Source of the DNA: Clostridia bacterium
GTDB lineage: Bacteria; Bacillota; Clostridia; Christensenellales; CAG-314
DNA length: 62,546 nt
Reading direction: 5' to 3'
NCBI GenBank assembly: GCA_017457305.1
Contig: JAFTHP010000030.1
Span: forward strand, 1 to 62,546
Part shown: positions 17,994-19,036 of the stretch, piece by piece
How the letters are laid out: each line of letters begins with the position of its first letter
How positions within the stretch are numbered: position 1 is the first letter of the stretch
The notes under the pieces: model-generated
What the model saw: only the letters and a program-made list of their open reading frames with translations
Told to the model about the DNA's origin: nothing
Database searches by the model: none
Translations under genes and position numbers: made by a program

Positions 17994-18170
17994 AGACAAC
18001 CAGTCAAGACAATAAACAAGAATATGATTGAGAACCTATTTGTCAAAAGTGTCTAGCGCGTTTCGTTATTTGGGTGGTTATTTTGAGGCATCTACTGTGA
18101 TTAAAGCAAAAGTTTCAAAAAAAATAACAAAAATATAGCAAAAAATAGTCAAAAATTGCAAAATTGGGTA

Positions 18171-18199
18171 TTGACATTGCCCTTTTGTGGTGGTATACT
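18171..18199 (+). promoter_or_regulatory. Strong promoter without an ORF (candidate sRNA promoter)
   Basis: TTGACA (18171-18176), 17-base spacer, TATACT (18194-18199). No coding sequence follows before the terminator at 18317-18355. Confidence 0.75.
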
Positions 18200-18205
18200 A
18201 TCTAT

Positions 18206-18356
18206 GGTTTATATAAGTTTGATGTTTATGGTTCAAACGTTTCTACCAACAACCTAATAGTTGACTATAAACTCCCTCCATAAAACATTGATTTGTACCG
18301 AATCAAACTCCTAAAAAAAGAGAAAGGCACTCCACAGCCTTTCTCTTTTGTTTTTA
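18206..18356 (+). ncRNA. Candidate ~150-nt small RNA
   Basis: A near-consensus promoter is followed about 115 bases later by a strong intrinsic terminator, with no ribosome-binding site and only an 11-codon ORF between. The predicted RNA contains unpaired-looking C-rich, anti-Shine-Dalgarno stretches ACTCCCTCCAT (18271-18281) and AACTCCT (just before the terminator), a feature of Firmicutes trans-acting sRNAs such as RsaE or CsfG. A palindromic core AAACGTTT at 18235-18242 lies at about +30 and could be an operator. This is inferred from signals only. Confidence 0.55.
18317..18355 (+). terminator. Terminator of candidate sRNA
   Basis: Stem AAAAGAGAAAGGC / GCCTTTCTCTTTT followed by GTTTTT. 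Confidence 0.9.
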
Positions 18357-18868: not shown

Positions 18869-18940
18869 CTTTTTCTGTGAAACTTTGTTTTTCAGTGGTG
18901 ATTTTTTGCAAGTTATGTTAGACCAACCACTATGACCAAC

Positions 18941-18988
18941 ATACTATATCTTGTGGTAAAAGTAAAAAAATACCACAATATATTGTGT
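18941..18988 (+). promoter_or_regulatory. Tandem NrdR boxes
   Basis: ATACTATATCTTGTGG (18941-18956) and CCACAATATATTGTGT (18973-18988) both match the NrdR consensus acaCwATATATwGtgt. Their start-to-start spacing is 32 bases, about three helical turns, as expected for the NrdR dimer pair. They sit just upstream of the nrdD -35 box. nrdR itself is not in the window. Confidence 0.85.
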
Positions 18989-19007
18989 TTTTAGTGCATT
19001 TTTTGCC

Positions 19008-19036
19008 TTGACAACCACTAAATATAGGTATACAAT
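19008..19036 (+). promoter_or_regulatory. Promoter of nrdD-trxB
   Basis: TTGACA (19008-19013), 17-base spacer, TACAAT (19031-19036). Confidence 0.85.

Follow-up and report, generated by a model that had tools for sequence, protein, structure and literature searches.

We consider it fairly probable that the window (the whole stretch of 62,546 nucleotides analysed here) carries the gene of a stand-alone, probably trans-acting anti-Shine-Dalgarno (anti-SD) small RNA (sRNA), which belongs to a family of the genus and whose 5′ domain is, in the window species, a guanine aptamer. That guanine sets the ability of this RNA to repress several mRNAs, which would make it a natural ligand-gated trans-acting sRNA, is a serious, if tentative, possibility. 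The original prediction of a candidate small RNA with anti-SD motifs at this locus is backed, at the level of sequence comparison, by a promoter, CU-rich segments and a terminator that recur across the genus, by compensatory changes in the stems and by independence from the neighbouring gene. That reading was nevertheless incomplete, as the first half of the transcript, a guanine-type riboswitch aptamer, had been overlooked.

The layout of the locus proved to be as described at the outset. By scan, the near-perfect promoter is TTGACA-N17-TATACT (11/12, with a TG before the second hexamer; 18171–18199), the strong terminator is a 13-bp stem-loop at 18316–18349 followed by GTTTTT, and the about 115 bases between them are without a gene and hold ACTCCCTCCAT at 18271–18281 and AACTCCT at 18306–18312. 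CCCTCCATAA occurs once in the 62.5-kb window versus 0.05 expected occurrences. The terminator loop holds a third C-rich element, ACTCCACA (18329–18336), which had likewise been overlooked. The ORFs spanning the interval are all short and start with TTG (33 and 39 aa on the + strand, 103 aa on the − strand), and a conserved ORF appears unlikely because the relatives differ by indels and compensatory base changes. Transcription would start at about 18206, and the features of the locus are the following:

18163–18205, + strand: conserved promoter region, TTGGGTATTGACA-N17-TATACT (scan, 11/12; promoter profile of the relatives)
18206–18356, + strand: putative small RNA of about 150 nt with aptamer domain, CU-rich motifs and terminator (promoter, terminator, 5′ and 3′ homology to the genus sRNA family)
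18207–18213 and 18266–18272, + strand: aptamer P1, 5′ strand GUUUAUA and 3′ strand UAUAAAC (fold and covariance-model alignment)
18217–18238, + strand: aptamer P2-L2, GUUUGA / UCAAAC, loop with UAUGG (covariance-model alignment, fold)
18239–18246, + strand: junction J2/3, part of the ligand-pocket consensus string GUUUCUACC (covariance-model alignment)
18247–18263, + strand: aptamer P3-L3, CAAC / GUUG, loop with CC (covariance-model alignment, fold)
18271–18283, + strand: CU-rich motif 1, ACUCCCUCCAUAA; CCUCCAU in most relatives, the CCUCCAU core being unpaired in the aptamer fold
18306–18312, + strand: CU-rich motif 2, AACUCCU (ACCCUCCUU in relatives), mostly unpaired
18316–18356, + strand: intrinsic terminator; its loop ACUCCACA (18329–18336) is the third C-rich element, likewise in G003, G004 and G023

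A small-RNA family of the genus

Conservation in relatives and exposed C-rich segments, both proposed as checks when the candidate was put forward, were found together. In thirteen other species there is an RNA of about 110 nt that lacks the aptamer and shares the extended promoter; it has an outer stem and a hairpin, both with covariation, and a terminator, and its CU-rich motifs, CCUCCAUAA and CCCUCCUUC, are mostly unpaired. Where it lies upstream of nrdD, the transcript has the order GGTATTGACA-N17-TATACT, AAGGTTWAGAA, hairpin, CCTCCATAATA, TTCTAACCGAACCCTCCTTC and terminator. A covariance model trained on eight of these nrdD-upstream relatives, with the window sequence left out, matches 13 genomes of the genus at E ≤ 0.0072 (twelve at E < 1e-8), with one copy in each. 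No match outside the genus was better than E = 0.002 among the 297 genomes of the order sampled, and the weak matches in other genera, like a weak one elsewhere in this genome, were not accepted as members (L047–L051, L193–L195). Two of them, from sister genera (L050, G034 C43; L051, G030 C195), look like different short RNAs that are C-rich and carry terminators.

Compensatory changes were seen in 16 of the 24 pairs across 13 sequences, with 50 cells against 14.7 ± 3.3 in shuffles, and when the partner strand was slid, at most 64% of the cells remained paired, against 92% before, in an alignment that was fitted to the model and leans towards the structure. Single-sequence folds, which are free of the model, give the same outline of outer stem, hairpin and terminator, and the CU-rich motifs in them are for the most part unpaired. 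The first motif varies: three members (L035, L038 and L045) are without CCTCCAT and keep the second motif, and in G013 and G011 (L005/L006) the RNA upstream of nrdD has CTCTCTTCTTCATAA in its place. Copies in G004 and G005 were found additionally by a promoter-pattern scan. G003 and G004 share the promoter, GAACTCC and a C-rich terminator loop, CUCCAUCA, which is comparable to ACUCCACA in the window. The loci concerned (L197 in G003, L214 in G004 and L216 in G005) read as divergent sRNA relatives with the same promoter and a different 5′ domain; the G005 copy retains only GAACTCCTTC, and C-rich terminator loops occur in those of G003 and G004. Taken together, the comparisons support an independent sRNA gene with its own promoter and terminator, and the family appears to be restricted to the genus and previously undescribed.

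A guanine-type aptamer as the probable 5′ domain

At curated cutoffs, the only Rfam match in the whole window is the purine riboswitch aptamer (RF00167) at 18189–18287 on the + strand, which scores 49.5 bits (cutoff 37; E = 2.4e-5 for the whole window); no known Firmicutes sRNA family was matched. In the covariance-model alignment the core strings UAUAA, UAUGG, GUUUCUACC and GACUA are all intact. The pocket residues of purine riboswitches, U22, U51 and C74 as named in PMC9295807, are present along with the conserved junction strings, which places the aptamer in the guanine type, the C of GACUA (C74) being the position that confers guanine specificity on the class. The 2′-deoxyguanosine class, which requires altered junction residues, was rejected because the junction strings here are those of the guanine consensus. 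From these residues we infer that the aptamer binds guanine. No other purine riboswitch was found in the genome (1.5 Mb); the aptamer is one of three in 41 genomes of the taxonomic family, and among 25 species of the genus it is present in the window species only.

The full sRNA covariance model has no match to the window element, presumably because the central domain of the window RNA is a different one. Membership was assessed with models of the outer parts, trained on relatives only, the promoter region being represented by a profile from 13 relatives. With the 5′-part model the best match in the window is 18163–18211 at E = 8e-10; this profile contains the promoter hexamers, and the next best promoter of the window nevertheless reaches only E = 0.19. 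The 3′-part model gives 18273–18323 at E = 0.15, which is the top match of the 62 kb at a position fixed beforehand by the 5′ match. The best reading of the sequence is that the window RNA is a member of the family whose variable 5′ domain is a guanine-type aptamer.

As to the origin of this domain, the aptamer was compared with 27 aptamers of the order, taken from loci fetched for the best matches. Its nearest counterparts are those of G033 and G034, in a sister genus (Ca. Limihabitans stercoravium and a relative). Only these two carry CCCTCCAT within 40 nt past P1, and the sister-genus riboswitches have CCCUCCAUA directly after P1, as does the window RNA; in the other 25 not even CCTCC was found within 40 nt after P1. 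Over GTDB species, the pattern of CCCTCCAT after an aptamer was found in eight stretches, of which two are the sister-genus genomes, and those from Selenomonas (L055) and Moorella (L056) had no purine match by Rfam. The aptamer with CCCUCCAUA thus probably represents an older module of the family, judging from these shared strings, and the sRNAs without an aptamer may have shed it or exchanged it for another domain; the nrdD tree is compatible with either loss or gain. The aptamer-free family of the genus may descend from a riboswitch RNA like that of Ca. Limihabitans, or may swap 5′ domains with one.

In two families of the order, purine riboswitches (L002, L003, L072 and L074) were seen directly upstream of the gene of an uncharacterized FAD-dependent oxidoreductase, which is to our knowledge an unusual gene association for the class. 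Two others (L070 and L071) precede an ORF resembling a SIS-domain sugar-phosphate isomerase (MKVDFLKRRKEMLESVERQFMGID...). In the genome studied here, an FAD-oxidoreductase homologue (C15) is preceded by a Gut-1 RNA (RF01706) over its cutoff (L096, 1322–1397) and by a second, weak copy.

Proposed mode of action and alternative readings

In the mechanism that we propose, the sRNA would act in trans, its CCUCCAUAA and ACUCCU segments pairing with purine-rich ribosome-binding sites. The guanine-bound aptamer would keep the 5′ domain in its P1-P2-P3 fold and leave both motifs free, as CCUCCAU and ACUCCU are in the predicted aptamer fold. Without ligand the 5′ half may pair with 18278–18304 and cover CCAU of motif 1, as it does in the ligand-free minimum-energy fold, which is favoured over the aptamer fold by 2.3 kcal/mol, and guanine would thus expose the seed. 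An evolved two-state switch left no statistical sign, 1490 of 2000 dinucleotide-shuffled versions of the downstream part matching or beating the real sequence, and is not claimed, since shuffled downstream sequence of like composition gives such competing folds by chance. Sites of the form ATGGAGG-N4-11-ATG number 15 in the genome, versus 10 for a reversed-pattern control, and they include genes read, from their translations alone, as rubrerythrin, an IscU-like scaffold, FeoB and ribosomal protein L1. A common trans target among rubrerythrin, IscU and nrdD was rejected, since their ribosome-binding sites vary across the genus and complementarity to CCUCCAU is not kept. The FAD-oxidoreductase mRNA was likewise rejected as a target; this genome has only a distant homologue, whose leader, as read, has no evident complementary ribosome-binding site. 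The transcription of the RNA, its trans targets, its control by guanine and the direction of the switch are all put forward here as predictions.

The outcome of the shuffle test, and the different, aptamer-free 5′ domains of other family members, would also fit a conserved sRNA acting in trans whose aptamer-like domain is only a structural cap or a relic, with perhaps little or no affinity for guanine and no part in regulating the sRNA. We regard this as unlikely: in a fast-diverging domain, the residues of the pocket and of the loop contacts are all intact, which argues for selection on binding.

Could the aptamer instead be an ordinary cis riboswitch of nrdD, for guanine or 2′-deoxyguanosine, acting by termination? 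The gene for the anaerobic ribonucleotide reductase is the next one on the same strand, a terminator follows the aptamer, and riboswitches for 2′-deoxyguanosine are known to be associated with ribonucleotide reductase. Yet the gap is 740 nt, nrdD has a separate promoter (11/12, at 19008), and the pocket is of the guanine type. Just upstream of the nrdD promoter (18936–19000) are two palindromic boxes, CATACTATATCTTGTGG and CCACAATATATTGTGTT, which resemble NrdR boxes and are kept in most of the nrdD upstream regions of the genus that were read. The terminator stem starts 43 nt past the end of P1, shares no bases with it and is formed in both the aptamer fold and the alternative fold in structure prediction; no antiterminator is predicted at the locus, nor was a cis expression platform found there in which P1 would compete with a terminator, an antiterminator or a downstream ribosome-binding site. 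Many guanine riboswitches of the same order, as read by eye, carry a second copy of the P1 3′ strand further downstream and run straight into purine genes. Moreover, the sRNA gene is away from nrdD in G014, G020 and G021, where it follows what reads as the end of a ferredoxin gene, and is oppositely oriented in G003, which the nrdD tree places as sister to the window species. Given these locations and this inversion, it is not an nrdD leader, and cis control of nrdD, against which the gap and the separate promoter also speak, is improbable and was set aside as the leading reading. A cis guanine riboswitch whose gene has been lost, and which persists as a non-functional leader fragment, would suit the lack of a close downstream gene and the position of the sister-genus homologues before an FAD-dependent oxidoreductase gene, but is very improbable given that all parts are intact and that promoter, CU-rich motifs and terminator are common to the genus-wide sRNA.

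Comparison with known systems

As far as we know, riboswitches are almost always cis elements. A guanine riboswitch fused to an sRNA was not found in the open-access literature, most subscription papers being outside the scope of the search, such that an earlier description is possible. If the reading as an sRNA with a guanine aptamer is true, a guanine aptamer in a conserved stand-alone sRNA would show metabolite sensing plugged into trans regulation, and aptamer-bearing and aptamer-free relatives within one family would form a natural series in which to ask whether riboswitch leaders become sRNAs.

With purine riboswitches of RF00167 the window RNA shares the three-way junction of P1, P2 and P3, UAUAA, GUUUCUACC, C74, the GG in L2 and the CC in L3. 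It differs in that its P1 overlaps no terminator, antiterminator or ribosome-binding site and in that the aptamer sits in a stand-alone short transcript without a purine gene downstream. Among C-rich Firmicutes sRNAs, we know of no metabolite aptamer in the LhrC family, RsaE/RoxS or RsaA. Like these, the window RNA is short, has its own promoter and terminator and exposes unpaired CU-rich motifs, although it has no Rfam match over cutoff to any of them. LhrC-type sRNAs carry UCCC motifs in a loop, a linker and the terminator loop (PMC8079631), and the 3′ half of the window RNA, with one motif in its terminator loop as in LhrC1-5, resembles this type.

Two Listeria riboswitch RNAs have known effects in trans. 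SreA, a SAM-riboswitch RNA, acts in trans on prfA and relies on ligand-dependent termination (PMC8079631). SreA and the window RNA are both terminated RNAs with a riboswitch domain, and the window RNA may similarly act in trans as an sRNA; SreA doubles as the cis riboswitch of its downstream operon, whereas the window RNA has no evident cis gene or switchable terminator and its ligand class is guanine. Rli55 is a non-coding RNA controlled by a B12 riboswitch through ligand-dependent termination, and it titrates the protein EutV (PMC8079631). As in the window RNA, a riboswitch is joined to a non-coding RNA as its output, but where Rli55 acts by titrating EutV, the candidate output of the window RNA would be anti-SD base-pairing.
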